Source of the DNA: Foetidibacter luteolus
GTDB lineage: Bacteria > Bacteroidota > Bacteroidia > Chitinophagales > Chitinophagaceae
NCBI RefSeq assembly: GCF_009650435.1
Contig: NZ_VVIP01000065.1
Coordinates: 62,001-126,000 of the forward strand
DNA: 64,000 nt
Direction of reading: 5' to 3'
Shown here: piece after piece, positions 39,857-50,647 of the stretch
Layout of the letters: the number at the start of each line of letters is the position of its first letter
Position numbering within the stretch: the first letter of the stretch is position 1
The notes under the pieces: model-generated
Databases searched by the model: none
The model's input: only the letters and a program-made list of their open reading frames with translations
What the model was told of the DNA's origin: nothing
Made by a program: the position numbers and the translations under genes

Positions 39857-40684
39857 CTAAGGTACTTTGATGGTTTTTGTCTGGTACGTATGGGCACTGA
39901 AATAACCCAAAGCACCCCCACGTATATTGGTAACCGGGTTAGCGGGTGTGGCATTCTGGTTTTCGCCGGTGGAGGCATTGAGCAGGCTGAACCAGTAGGT
40001 AAACATGGGATATTCTATACACATCATATCAACCCGCAATGTATCGCCGCTCCTTATTTTATTTTTCTTTTCTCCGTTTTCATCTTCTTCATCATCGTCA
40101 TCAAAAATCAGCAACTCGGTATTAATCGTCCTGCCATCGGTAAGCTCATCATTTTCTACAAAAATTGTTTTTTCCCTTTTTCCATTCAGGTATTGCACAT
40201 AGCGGTAAGCATTTCCTTTTCCCGGTGGGTCTTTAAACTGCACCGTAGCCACTTTTTCCTTACCATCAAATAACTGGGTTTCTGTAACGTATAAACTATC
40301 ATAGCTTACCAGCAAAGGCATAGTGGACGAAGCAGTGAATTCTTCGCCTTCAATTTTTACAGATAGCTTATATGTTTTTCCCTGCTGTGCCTGGAAGGAT
40401 GCGGTGCGGTAAGTTCCCGGATTTGTTTCCTGTAATGTGGTTACAGTACCGGCTTCATCTGTTACTGTAACTGTGGCGCCGCTTACAGAAGGAACATTGT
40501 TATCGTCGCTGAAATTAACCGTTTTACTGATGAGCACTTTACAGGAATCCTGCTGGTTGGTAATAATGCCTTCGATGACATATTTGGGATCGGCGGAGTT
40601 GAGGTCAATATCAATTACTTTTCTGCACGAGGCGGCGGTAACCAGTAAGATGAGGAGGAACGATATATTTTGTATGATTCGCAT
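39857..40684 (-). CDS. DUF4249 lipoprotein
   Basis: A 275-residue exported lipoprotein: hydrophobic leader and lipobox ending LVTAASC near residue 20. The immunoglobulin-like beta-rich start (SGATVTVTDEAG) and acidic loop (FDDDDEEDENGEKK) agree with DUF4249, a family almost always found directly after a TonB receptor in Bacteroidota. It starts 3 bases after the receptor stop. The role is probably an accessory surface subunit of the receptor, by analogy only. Confidence 0.88.
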   Translation of the reverse strand: MRIIQNISFLLILLVTAASCRKVIDIDLNSADPKYVIEGIITNQQDSCKVLISKTVNFSDDNNVPSVSGATVTVTDEAGTVTTLQETNPGTYRTASFQAQQGKTYKLSVKIEGEEFTASSTMPLLVSYDSLYVTETQLFDGKEKVATVQFKDPPGKGNAYRYVQYLNGKREKTIFVENDELTDGRTINTELLIFDDDDEEDENGEKKNKIRSGDTLRVDMMCIEYPMFTYWFSLLNASTGENQNATPANPVTNIRGGALGYFSAHTYQTKTIKVP

Positions 40685-40687
40685 AAG

Positions 40688-43021
40688 TTAGAATTTGAAG
40701 TTGTAAGAAACCGATGGAATGAATTTGAACAATGCTGTGCGTACAGCTTCAGTTTTGTTAGGATTGTCTTTGCTATTCCTAAACTCTATGATATAGGCGT
40801 TCTCTCTGCCGTAAGCGTTATACAAGCTGAAAGCCAGCTCCGATGAAAATTTCTTTTTCTTTTTAAGCTGTAACACCGCGCCAAGATCAAGCCGGTGGTA
40901 GTTAGGCATGCGATAGCCGTTTCTTTCGGTATAATAATAAACCATGCGGTCATCAAGCCTGTATTTACCACTGGGGAAACTAACGGCATCGCCGGTATAG
41001 AATATCCAGTTGGCAGACAGCGTCCACTTTTTATTAAGCTGGTAAGTGGCAACAATGGCGATATCGTGGGTTCTGTCCTGACGGGCGTTATACCATTCGT
41101 TGTTGTTTATTCCATTGATCTTACGCTCAGTTTTTGACAGGGTATAGCTAACCCAGCCGGAAAGCCTGCCCACTTTCTTTTTCATGAGCCATTCAATACC
41201 ATAAGCCCTGCCCTTACCAAACAGCAACTGGGATTCTATTACATCGTTGCTGAATACATCAGCACCATCGCGATAGTCAATCTGGTTCTGCATGGTTTTG
41301 TAATAAGCTTCTACGGTTAACTCATACTTGTTGCCAGCCAAATTTTTATAATAGCCAACAGAAACCTGGTCTGATATTTCAGGTTTGATGATGTTTGTGC
41401 TGGCTATCCATTTATCCGTAGGCGTAGAAGTTGTGGAGTTGGATATCAGGTGAAGGTTTTGCACGTTACGAACGTAAGAAGCTTTTACCGAAGACGAATT
41501 ATTAAGCGTATAACTGGCCGATACACGTGGCTCTATATTTACATAAGTTTTAACCACTTCACCTTTTTTGTAACTGGTGGTATCAATTACTTTTCCGTCG
41601 GTATCAAGCGTATAAAAATCTCCTTGACCTAGTATGCTGAACGCTGATAACCTTGCACCATAAGAAAGGTTGAAGTTGTCTGAGAGTTTCCAGTTGTTGG
41701 CTGCATAAACAGCATTCTCCAGCGAGTAGCGTTTCTGTAAAGCTTTGTCATTAAAGCTGGAACTGTCAGATGAAGAAATTTCACCCGGCCGCATGGTATG
41801 GTGGATGGCGTTTACCCCAAACCTGATATTGTTACGGGAACTCAGGAACCATTGAAACTCCTGCTTAAGGTTCCAGTCCTTTATTTGCGAGAAAACTTTA
41901 AAATCGTTGGCAGCGCTCTTAATTGTTATTTTATAATCGTAATTGCTGTATATAAGAGAAGTATTAGAGAACAACTTATCACTAAAAATATGGTTCCAGC
42001 GTAAGGTACCTGTAGCATTGCCCCAGTTAAGTTTGAAGGTCTCTCCTACCCCCAACTGGTCACGCCCGAAATAACCGGAAAGAAAGAGCCTGTCTTTTTT
42101 ACCTAACTGGTAATTTAGCTTGGCATTAAGATCGTAGAAATAAAGAGAGTTATTATTGATGGTACTATCGCTGGATAATTTTAAGAATGCATCCACATAG
42201 GTTCTTCTGCCAGATACCAGGAAGGATGATTTATCTTTTTGTATAGGGCCCTCTACATTCAGCTTGGCTGATATAGCGCCTATGCCGCCACTAACCGCAT
42301 AATCCTGGTTATTGCCATCATTCATTTTTATGTCAAGTACAGATGATAACCTGCCACCGTATTGTGCCGGCATACCACCTTTATATATCATTACATCTTT
42401 AATAGCGTCAGAGTTGAAAGTAGAAAAGAAACCCAACAGGTGTGATGCGTTATACACGGGTGCTTCATCCAGCAATATCAGGTTTTGATCCGCGGCCCCG
42501 CCACGTACAAAAAAGCCGCTGTTACCATCTCCTGCTGATTTAATGCCCGGCAGCAACTGGATGGTTTTAAGCACATCTCTTTCGCCAAACAACACAGGGA
42601 TAGTTTTTGTTTCATTTATGGTAAGCCGCTCAGCACCCATTTGAGGGCTGCTAAGGCTTCTGCCTTTTGCAGATGAGGTTACCGTTACATCTTCCAGTTC
42701 TTTAATCTCTTCTTCCAGTAATATGTTCAGCGTAATGTTTTTGTCCAGTTGCAGTTCTATCGTTTGCGGTTCAAGGCCTACCGCAGAAGCAAGTAAAGTG
42801 TACTTACCTGCCGGCAGGCTAATAGAGTAAAATCCATAATCGTTACTGGTTACGCCTGCACCTTTACCCTGCACGGTGATTGATGCACCAATCAAGCTTT
42901 CTCCGGATTTTTTTGAACGTACAGAGCCGCTGATTGTATATCGTGTTTGCGCTGTTGCCTGCTGCACCGTGACGCCCAGCAGCAATAAAAAGAATAGCCA
43001 TGTTTTAACCGTGTTGCTCAT
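40688..43021 (-). CDS. TonB-dependent receptor with carboxypeptidase-like N-terminal domain
   Basis: A 777-residue outer-membrane receptor, shorter than SusC. It has a signal peptide (to about 24), a CarboxypepD_reg-like domain (about 27-105), the LEDVTVTS segment, a plug (LLPGIKSAGDGNSGFFVRGG, then LILLDEAPVYNASHLLGFFS) and a barrel ending VSYNFKF. There is no STN domain of its own; the STN domain of this operon is on a separate protein (44667). The ligand is unknown; Fe-siderophore or peptide are both possible. Confidence 0.93.
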   Translation of the reverse strand: MSNTVKTWLFFLLLLGVTVQQATAQTRYTISGSVRSKKSGESLIGASITVQGKGAGVTSNDYGFYSISLPAGKYTLLASAVGLEPQTIELQLDKNITLNILLEEEIKELEDVTVTSSAKGRSLSSPQMGAERLTINETKTIPVLFGERDVLKTIQLLPGIKSAGDGNSGFFVRGGAADQNLILLDEAPVYNASHLLGFFSTFNSDAIKDVMIYKGGMPAQYGGRLSSVLDIKMNDGNNQDYAVSGGIGAISAKLNVEGPIQKDKSSFLVSGRRTYVDAFLKLSSDSTINNNSLYFYDLNAKLNYQLGKKDRLFLSGYFGRDQLGVGETFKLNWGNATGTLRWNHIFSDKLFSNTSLIYSNYDYKITIKSAANDFKVFSQIKDWNLKQEFQWFLSSRNNIRFGVNAIHHTMRPGEISSSDSSSFNDKALQKRYSLENAVYAANNWKLSDNFNLSYGARLSAFSILGQGDFYTLDTDGKVIDTTSYKKGEVVKTYVNIEPRVSASYTLNNSSSVKASYVRNVQNLHLISNSTTSTPTDKWIASTNIIKPEISDQVSVGYYKNLAGNKYELTVEAYYKTMQNQIDYRDGADVFSNDVIESQLLFGKGRAYGIEWLMKKKVGRLSGWVSYTLSKTERKINGINNNEWYNARQDRTHDIAIVATYQLNKKWTLSANWIFYTGDAVSFPSGKYRLDDRMVYYYTERNGYRMPNYHRLDLGAVLQLKKKKKFSSELAFSLYNAYGRENAYIIEFRNSKDNPNKTEAVRTALFKFIPSVSYNFKF

Positions 43022-43037
43022 AATAGTTTTGTAATTG

Positions 43038-44144
43038 TTATTTAGCAGAAGTGTTTTTTGTTCCCTTAAGGTTTACCTGTATGCCGCCTGTAAAGCCGAA
43101 ATACAGGCCGTAGAAATTGTTGCCGCTTGTTTTATCCCATACGTAGTGTTTGGTAAGGTTGTTGGCTTTGCCTTCGCTAATGTTTACATAATTAAATGTA
43201 GGCCCGGCAAACAACTCTATCGCACCCATCTTAACAGCGGGCATAATGCGCAATGAACCTCTGAAGTAATCGCCATCCTTAAAATCATCCAGGTGCATGC
43301 CGGTTAGCTCCGTATTTATACGCAATTGTTTTGAAAACCTGAAATGTGCGCCAATACCCATTTCCAACGCATACAAATGTTGTTTGCTGTAGTTAAGGTT
43401 ATACCCTATGCCCAATATGCCATACATTTTCTTACTGCCCGACCTGAACGACACCAATGTGGTTAAGGTTTCATCAACACTTATGCTGATAGTTTGTTCG
43501 CCGTTTTTGATGATATTAATGATACCGATAGGATACTCGCTGCTGTCTGCAATATTCATAAAACCCGACACCTGCACTCCCCTCACTTTTTTGGCAATGT
43601 TTAAAAAGCCGACAATTTGTGTGTTTACATTTGCCGATTTATTCAAAAAACCTGCAATCTGCAAACTGCCGGCATTGCCTTTAACGATGTTGGCAAACCC
43701 CGCTGATTGTACGCCTGTTGCACTGCCGCTGATGTTAAGATAGCCTGCCCCCTGGAAACCCTGCACATTGTTCTTAACATGGTTAAAGAAACCAGCCAGT
43801 TGCACCCCGCGGGAAGCATTGCGTATATGGTTACTAAAACCTGCTGCCTGAAAACCTTTGGCACTGTCTTTAATTATATTGGAAAAACCTGCAAGCGCTA
43901 CGCCGGTTTCGTTTTTTGAAAGCCCTGCTATAGCGTGTAAGGAAAACTTGTTGGTATACTCTCCGGCTTTGGAGCCATTGCTGCTGATAGGATAGATAAA
44001 GCCAATATGCACATTGCTCTTTTTGGTGTCCTGCGCCATACTGGCAAGATTAAAACAGCAGGCTAAAAGCAATATGCTAAATTTTGCCAGCGGTTTTATA
44101 GCTTGATTAATTGAATAGCGTTTGATTAATTCTCTTTTACACAT
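43038..44144 (-). CDS. Exported protein with 16-residue GVQLAGFxN surface repeats, no STN domain
   Basis: A 368-residue exported protein (hydrophobic leader to about 38). Residues 80-202 form eight repeats of about 16 residues with the pattern xGVQLAGFxNxxxxxx, ending in an IADSS...PIGIINII cap. The C-terminal 150 residues alternate like beta-barrel strands (GIGAHFRFS, LFAGPTFNYV). The repeats and the C-terminal part are homologous to the STN protein at 44667, so this looks like a duplicate that lacks the signalling half. The repeats recall GVQ/GLQIGxxN surface repeats (LA_2272 type), from memory. It ends 16 bases before the TonB receptor gene. Confidence 0.75.
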   Translation of the reverse strand: MCKRELIKRYSINQAIKPLAKFSILLLACCFNLASMAQDTKKSNVHIGFIYPISSNGSKAGEYTNKFSLHAIAGLSKNETGVALAGFSNIIKDSAKGFQAAGFSNHIRNASRGVQLAGFFNHVKNNVQGFQGAGYLNISGSATGVQSAGFANIVKGNAGSLQIAGFLNKSANVNTQIVGFLNIAKKVRGVQVSGFMNIADSSEYPIGIINIIKNGEQTISISVDETLTTLVSFRSGSKKMYGILGIGYNLNYSKQHLYALEMGIGAHFRFSKQLRINTELTGMHLDDFKDGDYFRGSLRIMPAVKMGAIELFAGPTFNYVNISEGKANNLTKHYVWDKTSGNNFYGLYFGFTGGIQVNLKGTKNTSAK

Positions 44145-44165: not shown

Positions 44166-44219
44166 GGTACCGGCGACATTATTTCATGGCATCATCGTTG
44201 CGTCGCAATCCTTTCATCT
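44166..44219. repeat. Dispersed repeat family 1 copy upstream of the repeat-protein gene
   Basis: GGTACCGGC...TTTCATGGCATCATCGTTGCGTCGCAATCCTTTCATC. It lies between the predicted ECF promoter (44449) and the gene it would drive (start 44144). The inverse copy is at 44539-44670, so the pair brackets the promoter. Confidence 0.75.
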
Positions 44220-44448: not shown

Positions 44449-44475
44449 GACAATGCACGGAATGTTTACCCCTAT
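44449..44475 (-). promoter_or_regulatory. Predicted ECF-sigma promoter, target genes
   Basis: On the minus strand: ATAGGGGT, then 15 bases, then TGTC (GACA at 44449-44452; ACCCCTAT at 44468-44475). The identical layout precedes the sigma gene itself at 48151-48177. It would drive the repeat protein, TonB receptor and DUF4249 genes, with a leader of about 300 bases. Confidence 0.6.
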
Positions 44476-44538: not shown

Positions 44539-44670
44539 GGGCTGAAAAGTTGCCATGAAAAACGGGACGATGAAGTGATTGATTATTAAATGCTCTTTCA
44601 CTGAAAGACCATTTAATAACAAAATCATATTTGCAACGAAGATGCCACAGGGCTATGTAGCTGGTATCAG
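44539..44670 (-). repeat. Repeat family 1, inverse copy interrupted by a palindrome
   Basis: Runs GGCTGAAAAGTTGCC...GGGACGATGAAGTGATT, then about 50 foreign bases, then TTGCAACGAAGATGCCACAGGG...AGCTGGTATCAG. The foreign part splits the normally continuous GATTGCGACGCAACG of the family. Confidence 0.8.
44583..44619. repeat. 37-bp palindrome inserted in repeat family 1
   Basis: TTATTAAATGCTCTTTCA, one spacer base, then TGAAAGACCATTTAATAA: 18-bp arms with a single mismatch. It is the core of the insertion in the copy at 44539. Confidence 0.85.
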
Positions 44671-46427
44671 AAAAAATTAATGCCGGCATGCCAGCCAAAC
44701 CAGCCACGTGCATCTGCACCAATGTTAAAGCCGGGATAACCTACTGCGGGGGCCGCTTTGTATCCCGCCACTGTATGCTTTTGCGTTGAATGAAAGATGG
44801 AAAAAGTCGGCCCCCCAAAGAATGCAGCCTTTTTGCTTATTCTAATATTCAGCGCCGGCTGCACACGGTATAGGTCAGGCAGGGTATTCCAGTCGCCCAA
44901 ATGCAGGTTTTGGCTGGTAAGCTCTGTTGTAATGCTGATACGGGGGCTGATGATTGACTCATTGCCGATACCATAGCCAAAGGTATAGGCTTTGTTACCG
45001 GCAGAAATATTCATGCCCGCTAACAATATGCTATACAATTTTCTGTTGCCGGATTTGTAAGCGAGGTTAAAATTGGTAACCTCATTGGCATATACAGAAA
45101 GCTTTTGATACCCTTTTTTTACAATGTTTATCAACCCGATACTGTAACCGGAAGAGGTATCTGCTATGTTGATCAGCGCAATCTGCACCCCTTTGGAGTG
45201 CTTTGTGTAATTGAACAAGCCTGCAATCTGTACACCACGCATCTCATCGCGGCTAATATTGCCAATGCCGGCCAGTTGCACGCCGCTTGCTTTATCTTTA
45301 ACCAGGTTAACCGTACTTGTACCCTGTACACCATTTAAACTGCCCCATATCACATTGTAACTGCCACTTAACTGCACACCTTTTACAGCACCTTTTACAA
45401 GGTTGCTAAAGCCAGACAACTGCACCCCGCTTAAAGAATCAAAGACATTGTTATGAATGCCGGCCAATTGCACACCACCAACCTTGCCACCCACAATATT
45501 AAATACGCCACCCATTTGTACACCGTTTACCCTACCCTTATCTATGTTAAATATGCCTGCTATTTCAAGGCCGTTAGCGCCAGCCGCATAGCCGCCCAAT
45601 ATGTTGATGGAAAGTTTATTAATAACCTGCGTATTTAACCCATGCGATGCCAGCCCAGGCACCAGCGATACCTGGAAGGGTTTATCCGCGAAAAACCTGC
45701 CGATATTAAGGCTTTGCCTTTTTTGCCGCAATGGCACAAAAAGCCTGCCCAGCCAGGTGCGTTCTACCTTTGTGGAAACCAATACCGGCGCCAACTCTGT
45801 ATTGGTGGGGGTTATGGCTACGGATAGCTGCTGATCGTAGCCGGGCTGGATAGTTACAGAAGTATCTGCATACGCCACTTTACTTACACTAAGCGCAAAA
45901 GCAGGGTGCCTGTCTCTTAACCTTAACCTGAAAAAACCATCTTCGTTTGTAAACGTGGATATAAGCTGGCTTTTTTCATACACACTGGCATCACCTATTT
46001 TTTCTCCGGTTCGTTTATCAACTACATAGCCGCTAATGGTATAATAGTTATTTACCTGCCCCCGCTGTATAATGATGTAGTTGCCGGTTTCTTTATATTG
46101 ATAGCCCTGGCCAAGCAAGTTATCCAGCACTTCCCTAACCGTTTTGGCTGACAGGTTAATGCTCACCACGCTATCGCCTTTTAAGATATGGCTGCTATAA
46201 GAAAAGTAAAATTTACCCTGGGCAGAAACAGACTGCAATATCTCTTTTACCGCTTTATTTTCTTCCCTGACTGTAACAAGCAGGTTTAATTTGTTTTGGG
46301 CAAAACTGCGGTTGTATGTTAATAAAAGGCATAGTCCGGTTACCGCTGCTTTTATCAACAGCCTGCTGTTGTCCTCCGTTATGGTGGCAATAATATTTTT
46401 GAACTTTTCAAACGTTGTTAACCGCAT
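44667..46427 (-). CDS. STN-domain surface protein with carboxypeptidase-like domain and 16-residue repeats
   Basis: A 586-residue exported protein with a long leader (to about 44). Domains: STN (about 45-122, including FYFSYSSHILKG and REVLDNLLGQG), CarboxypepD_reg-like (about 128-212), a linker, then seven repeats of exactly 16 residues (285-396; NGVQMGGVFNIVGGKV type), two more irregular ones, and a C-terminal barrel-like region (about 430-586). STN domains normally sit on TonB-dependent transducers and contact the FecR-type anti-sigma; here no TonB plug or barrel follows. It lies directly after the sigma and fecR genes, so it is the likely signal input. The paralogue at 43038 has only the repeats and C-terminus. 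Confidence 0.8.
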   Translation of the reverse strand: MRLTTFEKFKNIIATITEDNSRLLIKAAVTGLCLLLTYNRSFAQNKLNLLVTVREENKAVKEILQSVSAQGKFYFSYSSHILKGDSVVSINLSAKTVREVLDNLLGQGYQYKETGNYIIIQRGQVNNYYTISGYVVDKRTGEKIGDASVYEKSQLISTFTNEDGFFRLRLRDRHPAFALSVSKVAYADTSVTIQPGYDQQLSVAITPTNTELAPVLVSTKVERTWLGRLFVPLRQKRQSLNIGRFFADKPFQVSLVPGLASHGLNTQVINKLSINILGGYAAGANGLEIAGIFNIDKGRVNGVQMGGVFNIVGGKVGGVQLAGIHNNVFDSLSGVQLSGFSNLVKGAVKGVQLSGSYNVIWGSLNGVQGTSTVNLVKDKASGVQLAGIGNISRDEMRGVQIAGLFNYTKHSKGVQIALINIADTSSGYSIGLINIVKKGYQKLSVYANEVTNFNLAYKSGNRKLYSILLAGMNISAGNKAYTFGYGIGNESIISPRISITTELTSQNLHLGDWNTLPDLYRVQPALNIRISKKAAFFGGPTFSIFHSTQKHTVAGYKAAPAVGYPGFNIGADARGWFGWHAGINFF

Positions 46428-46534
46428 AGAGTATTTGCCTTACAAAGGGCGCTAAGGTAACTGTAGTTTGAGGGTGTATATATGTTGCATTATTTGTCCG
46501 GCAATCAAAAAGGATGAAAAGCAATTACTCCTCC

Positions 46535-47518
46535 TTATTTTATCAGAATATGATTTCCCTGCTTCTCTATCCGTGCCTTTAAAGTTTCTGCTATCAGCTT
46601 TAACGCCTCTTCCAGGTTATAAGGCAGGGTTGTGTTTAACCTTTCTTTTTTCAATCTTTCACTGTCTATTACTACACGGCTGCCAAATACTTCGTTTAAT
46701 ACTTCAACAACCCTGGGCAACGGGGTATCATCGCATGTAAACATGCCTGTACGATAATAATTATACAATTCATCCGTGCTCTTTTGCTTTACCAGTTCTT
46801 CCGCAACATTAGGCACCACCACCTTTTCCTTTGGCTTAAGCCTTACCGCTTTTTGTTGCTTTGCTACTTCCACTATACCGGTTTCCACAATCACTTCAGT
46901 ATTGCTGCTATTGCTTTTTACGTTAAAAGATGTGCCTACTACAGTAACGGTAACGTTGTTTACGGCAATCACAAAAGGTTTGCTTTTATCCGGGGTTACA
47001 TTAAAAAATGCTTCCCCCTGCAACGTAACAGACCTGGTATCGCCCGTTAGTTTACTGTTATACGCCAGCGAAGAATTTTTATTAAGCGTTACCACCGAAC
47101 CATCCGGCAGGGTATCGTTAATAACACGGTTAAATGACTGCACCAAAACAGGTTGGCCGGCATCGCCTTTACCCAGGTAAAAATAGGCGGCCATGCCTGC
47201 CATGATAACTACAAAAACCGCAGCAGCCACACGCAGCCAGCCCAGTTTTTCAGGCCGCATTGGTACAACAGGTATTTCTTCTGCAGTTTGCCTAAGGCCA
47301 GCCTTAAACCTTTGCCAGGCTTCATTTTCATCTACTTTGCTTTCCGCGGCCAGCTTAAGGCTTTCCTGCCATATACGGCGCAACTGTTCAAAATATTTGG
47401 GGTTATCTCCACCCTCTGCCAGCCAGCTTTTAACCAGGCTTTGTTCATCGGCAGATGCCTCCTCCAGCAAGTACTTAACCAGCAGGTCATCATTCATATC
47501 GTGTATATGCTCTCTCAT
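46535..47518 (-). CDS. FecR-type anti-sigma factor
   Basis: A single-pass inner-membrane regulator of 327 residues: a cytoplasmic N-terminal part that binds sigma (1-92), a TM helix (about 94-115), a periplasmic FecR domain (LPDGSVVTLNKNSSLAYNSK..., with GEAFFNVTPDKSKPFVI) and a C-terminal DUF4974/STN-like domain (VVEVLNEVFGSRVVID). It starts 3 bases after the sigma stop, so synthesis is coupled. The C-terminal domain should meet the STN domain of the next gene product. Confidence 0.93.
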   Translation of the reverse strand: MREHIHDMNDDLLVKYLLEEASADEQSLVKSWLAEGGDNPKYFEQLRRIWQESLKLAAESKVDENEAWQRFKAGLRQTAEEIPVVPMRPEKLGWLRVAAAVFVVIMAGMAAYFYLGKGDAGQPVLVQSFNRVINDTLPDGSVVTLNKNSSLAYNSKLTGDTRSVTLQGEAFFNVTPDKSKPFVIAVNNVTVTVVGTSFNVKSNSSNTEVIVETGIVEVAKQQKAVRLKPKEKVVVPNVAEELVKQKSTDELYNYYRTGMFTCDDTPLPRVVEVLNEVFGSRVVIDSERLKKERLNTTLPYNLEEALKLIAETLKARIEKQGNHILIK

Positions 47519-47521
47519 GTG

Positions 47522-48121
47522 CTATAAGCGAAACAGTATTATCAATAATGGTAAAAATTCCACCAGCTTAAGCCGCATCAGCTTCAGGGCCTTGCCCATC
47601 TGGTTTTCTACCGTTTTAATTGAAATACCCAGCGCTTTGGCTATTTCATGGTATTTCAAATCTTCAAAACGGCTCATCTGGAAGATGGTCCTGCACTGCT
47701 CCGGCAATTCATTCAGCGCTTTGCGTATGTTACTCTCCAGCTCAGCTTGCCGCACTCGTGCCGAGGCGCTGTCTTCTTCATAATGTTTTGCCTGCTGCAT
47801 GGTATAAGATTGATGGCTGGCTTTTACCTGCTGGTGCGTAAGCTGGTTAAGGCACAGGTTATGCACAGAGCGGTACAAATAAGCCTTTACTGATACATGG
47901 ATGGTTAATTCGTCCTTTTTCTCCCATATCTTATAAAACACCTGTTGTACCATTTCCTCCGCGGCAGCTTCATTTTTCAGTATGGTGCATGCATAGGCAT
48001 GCAGGTTTTTAAAATTGGTTTTAAAAACCTGTTCAAATACCTGCTCATCACGCATAGATGACAGGTCAGCAGCGTACACATCGCCTTGTTTCATTGTGCC
48101 GGTTTCTGTAACAGTCGTCAA
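47522..48121 (-). CDS. ECF RNA polymerase sigma-70 factor, Bacteroidota FecI type
   Basis: A 199-residue extracytoplasmic-function sigma factor. Region 2 is in FKNLHAYACTILKNEAAAEEMVQQVFYKIW and region 4, with its helix-turn-helix, in LPEQCRTIFQMSRFEDLKYHEIAKALGISIKTVENQM. A hydrophobic tail (LPLLIILFRL) ends it. The start at 48121 is about 20 bases after the transcription start expected from the ATAGGGGT-N15-TGTC promoter at 48151-48177, which suggests it activates itself. Confidence 0.94.
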   Translation of the reverse strand: MTTVTETGTMKQGDVYAADLSSMRDEQVFEQVFKTNFKNLHAYACTILKNEAAAEEMVQQVFYKIWEKKDELTIHVSVKAYLYRSVHNLCLNQLTHQQVKASHQSYTMQQAKHYEEDSASARVRQAELESNIRKALNELPEQCRTIFQMSRFEDLKYHEIAKALGISIKTVENQMGKALKLMRLKLVEFLPLLIILFRL

Positions 48122-48150: not shown

Positions 48151-48177
48151 GACAGGTATGAAATACCAAACCCCTAT
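48151..48177 (-). promoter_or_regulatory. Predicted autoregulated ECF-sigma promoter
   Basis: Minus strand ATAGGGGT (48170-48177), 15 bases, TGTC (48151-48154). Same boxes and same spacing as the site at 44449-44475 in the target part of the operon. Confidence 0.6.
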
Positions 48178-48210: not shown

Positions 48211-48325
48211 TGATACCAGCGACATAACCTTGTGGGGACTTCGTTGCGTCGCAATCCTTTCGTCGTTTGGTTCATTGGGCATCTTTTCAGCCCGGGTAGT
48301 GTTGGTGCGTGAAGACACGCACCAA
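48211..48325. repeat. Repeat family 1 copy with terminal hairpin
   Basis: GATACCAGC...TCGTTGCGTCGCAATCCTTTCGTC...CATTGGGCATCTTTTCAGCCCGGG (48211-48296), followed by a hairpin with perfect 10-bp arms TTGGTGCGTG/CACGCACCAA (48302-48325). This is part of a 903-base region with no gene, upstream of the sigma factor, that also holds two other repeat types. Confidence 0.8.
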
Positions 48326-50405: not shown

Positions 50406-50478
<73 letters not shown>

Positions 50479-50485
50479 CAAAAAG

Positions 50486-50510
50486 ATGCCGCGTAAGCGG
50501 CATTTTTTTT
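50486..50510 (+). terminator. Terminator or attenuating hairpin between the tRNAs
   Basis: Stem ATGCCGC/GCGGCAT, loop GTAA, then eight Ts. Confidence 0.8.
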
Positions 50511-50536
50511 CGGTTGTTCCCGAAGCAAAAGAACAG

Positions 50537-50622
50537 GCCCTGGTGGTGGAACTGGTAGACACGCAGGACTTAAAATCCTGTGGTCAGCAATGGCCGTGCG
50601 GGTTCAACTCCCGCCTGGGGCA
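50537..50622 (+). tRNA. tRNA-Leu (TAA)
   Basis: An 86-base class II tRNA: acceptor GCCCTGG/CTGGGGC (two G-T pairs), anticodon stem CAGGA/TCCTG with loop CTTAAAA (anticodon TAA), long variable arm, T-arm GGGTTCAACTCCC. The CCA end is not encoded. Confidence 0.96.
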
Positions 50623-50647
50623 CATGGCGTAAAATCACGCATTTTTT

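Follow-up and report, generated by a model that had tools for sequence, protein, structure and literature searches.

A plug-less STN protein as the likely transducer of a TonB-independent, FecI/FecR-type switch in Bacteroidota

Textbook cell-surface signalling combines sensing and TonB-driven import in one protein. In the PupR/PupB system, the STN domain of the receptor binds the anti-sigma factor, for which an STN-like C-terminal part and a juxta-membrane subdomain are needed (PMC7186176), and in the FoxA/FoxR system the signalling domain shields the anti-sigma factor from proteolysis until the signal comes (PMC11637429). A different design is found in the PUMA3 system (VreA-VreR-VreI) of Pseudomonas aeruginosa. 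Here VreA carries an STN domain without a plug or TonB barrel, an architecture described by its authors as unique; the protein is largely soluble and located in the periplasm, its C-terminal domain is TolA/TonB-like, and VreI controls secretion and virulence genes (PMC2729926). The locus presented in this work lies in a window of 64,000 nucleotides from Foetidibacter luteolus (contig NZ_VVIP01000065.1, positions 62,001 to 126,000), where the genes for an extracytoplasmic function (ECF) sigma factor and its FecR anti-sigma factor are followed by one for a 586-residue protein with an STN domain. An earlier note on this DNA had singled out this protein; its premise that in known systems the STN domain belongs to a TonB receptor overlooked VreA (PMC2729926).

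We consider it likely that the 586-residue protein acts as transducer in a FecI/FecR-type switch for cell-surface signalling that is independent of TonB. This reading is carried by the domain order of the protein, the absence of a plug, the co-conservation of the trio formed by sigma factor, FecR and STN protein, and a shared promoter motif. The genes are arranged on the minus strand in the order sigma factor, FecR, STN protein and then a paralogue of the repeat and barrel half, a TonB receptor and a DUF4249 protein. The trio, the domains of the STN protein and the two promoter-like sites are the following:

47522..48121, minus strand: ECF sigma factor of the Bacteroidota TIGR02985 subfamily (169.5 bits, cut-off 126.4), with a likely start at ATG 48094
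46535..47518, minus strand: FecR anti-sigma factor with a FecR domain (PF04773) and a FecR_C, STN-like C terminus (PF16344)
44667..46427, minus strand: STN/CPL/LA_2272-repeat/barrel protein of 586 residues, the proposed non-TonB transducer (CPL, carboxypeptidase-regulatory-like domain)
46299..46427, minus strand: signal peptide region, residues about 1-43, from the sequence, with a predicted helix at 21-38
46062..46280, minus strand: STN domain, residues about 50-122, from PF07660 and the predicted structure
45810..46046, minus strand: CPL domain of transthyretin fold, residues 128-206 (PF13715, 1e-10)
45624..45809, minus strand: probably flexible linker, residues 207-268 (pLDDT below 50 in 210-218, 234-250 and 253-266)
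45120..45620, minus strand: 16-residue LA_2272-type repeats with a solenoid-like strand pattern, residues 270-436
44670..45110, minus strand: predicted 8-strand outer-membrane beta-barrel with a C-terminal Phe, residues 440-586 (AlphaFold2, Foldseek)
48151..48176, minus strand: ECF promoter-like site TAGGGGT-N14-CTGTC before the sigma gene, suggesting autoregulation (15.9 bits, family matrix)
44449..44474, minus strand: second promoter-like site TAGGGGTA-N13-TTGTC before the paralogue, TonB receptor and DUF4249 genes (27.4 bits, family matrix)

In the Pfam scan of the 586-residue protein, the STN profile (PF07660) spans residues 75-122 and CarbopepD_reg_2 (PF13715) residues 131-215 (1e-10), and neither a TonB plug (PF07715) nor a TonB-receptor barrel was found. 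The profile search for a plug and the gene positions thus bear out the claim of the earlier note that, after sigma and fecR, the STN domain sits on a repeat and barrel protein without a plug. A secretin C-terminal domain after the STN domain was likewise not matched by Pfam, either in this protein or in the scanned relatives. Structure prediction, which that note had also proposed, gave an AlphaFold2 model built from 61 sequences with a mean pLDDT of 84.5. The N-terminal part of the model is indeed STN-like, with a beta-alpha-beta arrangement at about 50-122, followed by the CPL domain (128-205), disorder (207-266), repeat strands (270-436) and eight further strands (440-586). The predicted barrel spans only about 147 residues, and its Foldseek matches are mostly small barrels, among them NspA, OmpA and designed transmembrane barrels, with outer-membrane barrels matched at a TMt of up to 0.64; the protein ends in ...GINFF, and strand alternation is clear only in part. 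Among solved structures, a profile search matched the CPL part to the SusC homologue chain 9hfj only, and a viral fold library returned only generic CPL and barrel matches.

The repeats are the other distinctive part of the protein. Eight matches to the pattern G-x-[QE]-x-x-[GST]-x-x-N follow one another at an exact spacing of 16 residues (at 286, 302, 318, 334, 350, 366, 382 and 398), flanked by degenerate copies, while 1000 shuffles of the protein yield at most one. The register described earlier is therefore exact, with eight strict copies plus degenerate flanks rather than seven. The NCBIfam family LA_2272_repeat (NF047436) is assigned exactly at its cut-off (25.0 against 25 bits). Each unit is modelled as one long and one short strand, and this strand pattern, with conserved Gln/Asn ladders, makes a solenoid plausible, as had been suggested; no solved solenoid was matched by Foldseek, and profile searches of solved structures gave nothing convincing for this segment. 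Eight-strand outer-membrane barrels have both their N and C termini on the periplasmic side. Since the repeats precede a predicted barrel of this kind, they are more likely periplasmic than surface-exposed, and the surface sensor first proposed is not supported.

The same architecture recurs widely. A search for relatives, limited to one genome per species, confirmed 480, of which the best 80 loci were kept; these come from Chitinophaga, Niastella, Terrimonas, Flavihumibacter, Taibaiella, Pedobacter and others. In a phylum sample, the repeat and barrel half was matched in 72 of 396 genomes. All 61 aligned relatives carry PF13715 and match NF047436 at E<=0.01, 55 of them match the STN profile PF07660, and a Plug domain was found in none of the 93 scanned entries (0/32 and 0/61, Pfam). 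By open reading frame (ORF) calling, FecR and then the sigma gene lie directly upstream of the STN gene in 67 of the 74 loci that could be judged, and tblastn recovered both genes in 5 of the 7 exceptions, raising the count to 72 of 74; the neighbourhood comparison called for by the earlier note thus agrees with it. Among 20 phylum-wide loci, the sigma/FecR pair accompanies 12 of the 13 with an STN domain and none of the 7 LA_2272 loci without one (Fisher p = 1e-4). Moreover, in 120 loci each ORF matched by the family STN profile also has the repeat/barrel part, from which it follows that the TonB receptors of these operons lack STN.

Most STN proteins of the window genome and of the phylum are STN-family frames of about 900-1200 residues, and of the other STN frames counted across the phylum nearly all are as long as TonB receptors (about 900-1260 residues). 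Frames of about 640-680 residues, STN-bearing and not of the TonB type, were considered as further family members and rejected: the 666-residue frame of locus L204 reads as a secretin, and L200-L203 are unmatched by the family profiles. One genome (G060) carries three STN/CPL/repeat proteins, of which the copy at L206 has its own sigma factor and FecR and the copy at L207 has neither within 12.5 kb. A 265-residue STN frame (L205:4251-5048) has a complete STN-bearing TonB receptor, FecR and sigma factor as neighbours, and resembles the N terminus of a receptor cut short.

The trio loci share a promoter motif, TAGGGGTA-N13-kTGTY, with fixed spacing, found before the sigma gene and before the next unit, whether this starts with the paralogue, a TonB receptor or a DUF2807 gene, and nearly missing from the rest of these loci. 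An unbiased count of dyads upstream of the sigma gene returned AGGGG-N14-GTTGT in 34 of 71 loci; in shuffles, no dyad did better than 4-5. TGTY follows TAGGGGTA at exactly 22 bases in 113 cases, and at any other offset in 8 at most. Over 1.29 Mb, a strict site stands in front of 55 sigma, 31 TonB receptor, 22 paralogue and 5 DUF2807 genes, compared with 2 matches on the opposite strand and 2 in the reversed sequence. Of 72 loci, 41 have a site in the first 600 bp beyond the STN gene, and none has one between the sigma gene and the end of the STN gene. The motif recurs in trio-bearing loci of other families (L102-L108, L111, L115), and none of the 7 LA_2272 loci without STN has it; no matching site was seen at the 8 FecR loci that the window genome has besides that of the trio. 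In the window, 20 shuffles of the plus strand reach a matrix score of at most 9.3 bits. The strict pattern occurs at 3 places in the window genome, which its backward control equals or exceeds, and the loose pattern there is no commoner than its backward control either, so a single match means little without its position. The motif is probably read by the sigma factor of the trio.

In one genome, a site occurs away from the trio. It is found in G015, 239 bp upstream of a TonB receptor of the window type (L226, G015:C1), on a different contig from the trio, which suggests a regulon in trans. L242 (G001:C27) also has a site before a receptor of this type. A dispersed repeat, AAAGGATTGCGACGCAACGA, is common to both promoter regions of the window (48244-48263 and 44199-44218, minus strand), and was rejected as a control element given its 93 copies genome-wide, counted with up to 1 mismatch. 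Between the second promoter site and the paralogue gene stands one of these copies; the leader of this gene is about 300 nt long, compared with about 50 nt in relatives. The intergenic segment 48380-48810 (minus strand), which is upstream of the sigma promoter, holds an element, 'GTTACnAGT...CACCGGTCTGTTGAT', that occurs twice.

The second promoter-like site precedes three genes of the window, proposed to form a second transcript:

43038..44144, minus strand: paralogue of 368 residues with repeats and barrel only, without STN or CPL
40688..43021, minus strand: TonB-dependent receptor with CPL and Plug, without STN (Pfam), a proposed sigma target
39857..40684, minus strand: DUF4249 protein (PF14054, 2.1e-27), last gene of the proposed second transcript

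The paralogue is 37% identical to the 586-residue protein over residues 285-546 of the latter, and its model matches the eight-strand barrel 6x9z (TMt 0.71), with longer repeat strands. The operon TonB receptor has CPL and Plug domains but no STN in Pfam, so its lack of STN, part of the original observation, is upheld. Within 6.5 kb downstream of 66 loci, a TonB receptor is found in 36, a DUF2807 protein in 37, the paralogue in 27, while 13 have none of them. Where an operon has a receptor, a DUF2807 (GIN domain) protein usually comes after it (33 of 36, e.g., L135:12339-13055) and is a possible partner of it. Since motif sites stand before TonB receptor genes, the receptor looks like a regulated output rather than the transducer, and is best seen as an output of the switch. 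The idea that sensing and import are split between two proteins holds insofar as these are separate, linked by a promoter, and the receptor appears as a sigma target; as a fixed pair it was too narrow, the receptor being nearby in only 36 of the 66 loci. Elsewhere in the region, the sole Rfam matches are tRNA-Gly(GCC) and tRNA-Leu(TAA) at 50406-50623 (plus strand).

In the proposed mechanism, the C-terminal barrel would anchor the 586-residue protein in the outer membrane, leaving STN, CPL and probably the repeat segment in the periplasm. The STN domain would dock on FecR, the product of the adjacent gene, at the STN-like C-terminal end, and control the proteolysis of FecR, both steps being modelled on the characterized systems. 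The FecR of the window resembles the solved homologues 4m0n/4m0h (1.5e-25), and its FecR_C corresponds to the STN-like subdomain of PupR, which binds the receptor STN in that system, supporting the role of transducer. When the signal arrives, FecR would be cleaved and the ECF sigma factor released, which could then transcribe its own operon from the TAGGGGTA-N13-kTGTY promoter and, in addition, the second unit: paralogue, TonB receptor and DUF4249 protein in the window, TonB receptor and/or DUF2807 protein in relatives.

Several observations weigh against this transducer role. The STN domain of the window falls at the Pfam cut-off (28.2 against 28.4 bits in hmmscan), with better scores in relatives; in the genome search it reached 31.5 bits, above the same cut-off. 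At two Chitinophaga loci (L159, L167) and at L100, the STN/repeat protein is encoded with neither sigma factor nor FecR nearby, the motif before the sigma gene is recognisable in 56 of the 74 trios, leaving some without, and its link to the sigma factor is drawn only from position and conservation. The STN domain could also be a structural or oligomerisation module beside a coincidental sigma/FecR neighbourhood, since secretins too have an STN domain that serves assembly, the L204 frame being a case in point; but secretin and plug domains are absent here, and the adjacency in 72 of 74 loci, the co-occurrence of STN and FecR and the shared promoter make coincidence very unlikely, so that we give this explanation hardly any weight.

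Two other explanations accept the switch and place its input elsewhere. The STN protein might have no ligand of its own, touching instead the TonB receptor of the operon and relaying its occupancy to FecR. That the receptor belongs to the same operon in the window and lies nearby in 36 of 66 loci, that both proteins share a CPL domain, and that 31 receptor genes have the sigma promoter motif would all suit such a relay. Nevertheless, in the other 30 loci no TonB receptor was recognised within 6.5 kb, although some may be elsewhere; the receptors are highly divergent (that of the window is about 20% identical to most and 70% to one), which is unexpected if one conserved barrel docks on all; and a sigma target need not be a sensor. 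We therefore regard this relay as unlikely. Slightly less likely still, the switch could read the state of the envelope rather than a nutrient, namely outer-membrane protein assembly or the abundance of a paralogue that would compete with or cap the transducer. The paralogue shares the repeat and barrel half, is in many loci the next gene downstream and has its own sigma promoter (22 sites), suggesting feedback, and 13 of 66 loci have it without a TonB receptor or DUF2807 protein nearby; yet it is absent in 39 of 66 loci. The TonB-independent transducer remains our preferred reading.

Bacteroidota with the conserved trio appear to sense and import through separate proteins, and the location of signal transduction and import on different proteins is supported across hundreds of genomes. 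This separation, in a conserved family, of what the textbook systems unite lets one ask what an STN domain reports without transport, and whether TonB energy is needed, and the promoter motif marks out a regulon that can be tested in hundreds of genomes, for which type strains of Chitinophaga or Pedobacter that have the operon could be the laboratory hosts. With moderate confidence, we propose a widespread and undescribed Bacteroidota class in which a dedicated receptor made of repeats and an outer-membrane barrel, rather than a transporter, perceives a cue from the envelope or from outside via FecR and an ECF sigma factor, and in which a promoter code of its own turns on TonB receptors, DUF2807 proteins and a paralogue of the receptor that resembles a decoy.

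Compared with the FecI/FecR/FecA type (FecA, FpvA, PupB, FoxA), the locus has in common the ECF sigma factor, a FecR with an STN-like C terminus, the STN domain on a partner, the order sigma-FecR-partner and a promoter signature before the sigma gene. It differs in that the partner has neither plug nor TonB-receptor barrel, its STN domain being on a repeat and small-barrel protein, and in that the TonB receptor is separate, STN-less and apparently regulated, or absent. The logic of PupR/PupB and FoxA/FoxR, given a different outer-membrane body, accounts for all observations made here. The SusC-type TonB receptors of ECF-controlled Bacteroidota loci share STN, PF13715 and sigma/FecR control; unlike them, the 586-residue protein has no plug or SusC barrel and starts with STN followed by PF13715, whereas in SusCs PF13715 stands before STN (PMC7782687). 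LA_2272 surface repeat proteins (NF047436) share the 16-residue repeats, at the family cut-off, and the 368-residue paralogue derives from the same half, but here STN and CPL are added and the linkage to sigma/FecR is fixed, while the sampled STN-less members lack that linkage.

The nearest published precedent is VreA, the sole case found of STN without a TonB barrel in such switches. Both proteins are STN partners without plug or TonB barrel that act with an anti-sigma factor and an ECF sigma factor; the 586-residue protein has CPL, repeats and a predicted outer-membrane barrel instead of the TolA/TonB-like domain, and the targets of VreI are not a neighbouring TonB receptor. No literature naming 'STN domain', FecR and Bacteroidetes together was found, only classical systems and VreA otherwise, and no published description of the STN/CPL/repeat/barrel architecture with sigma/FecR was found in a search reaching few subscription papers. 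Automated annotation names such proteins after the STN and carboxypeptidase-like domains they contain, so the bare combination of domains has been seen before; what is new, as far as could be found, is the functional grouping with its spread and its promoter.

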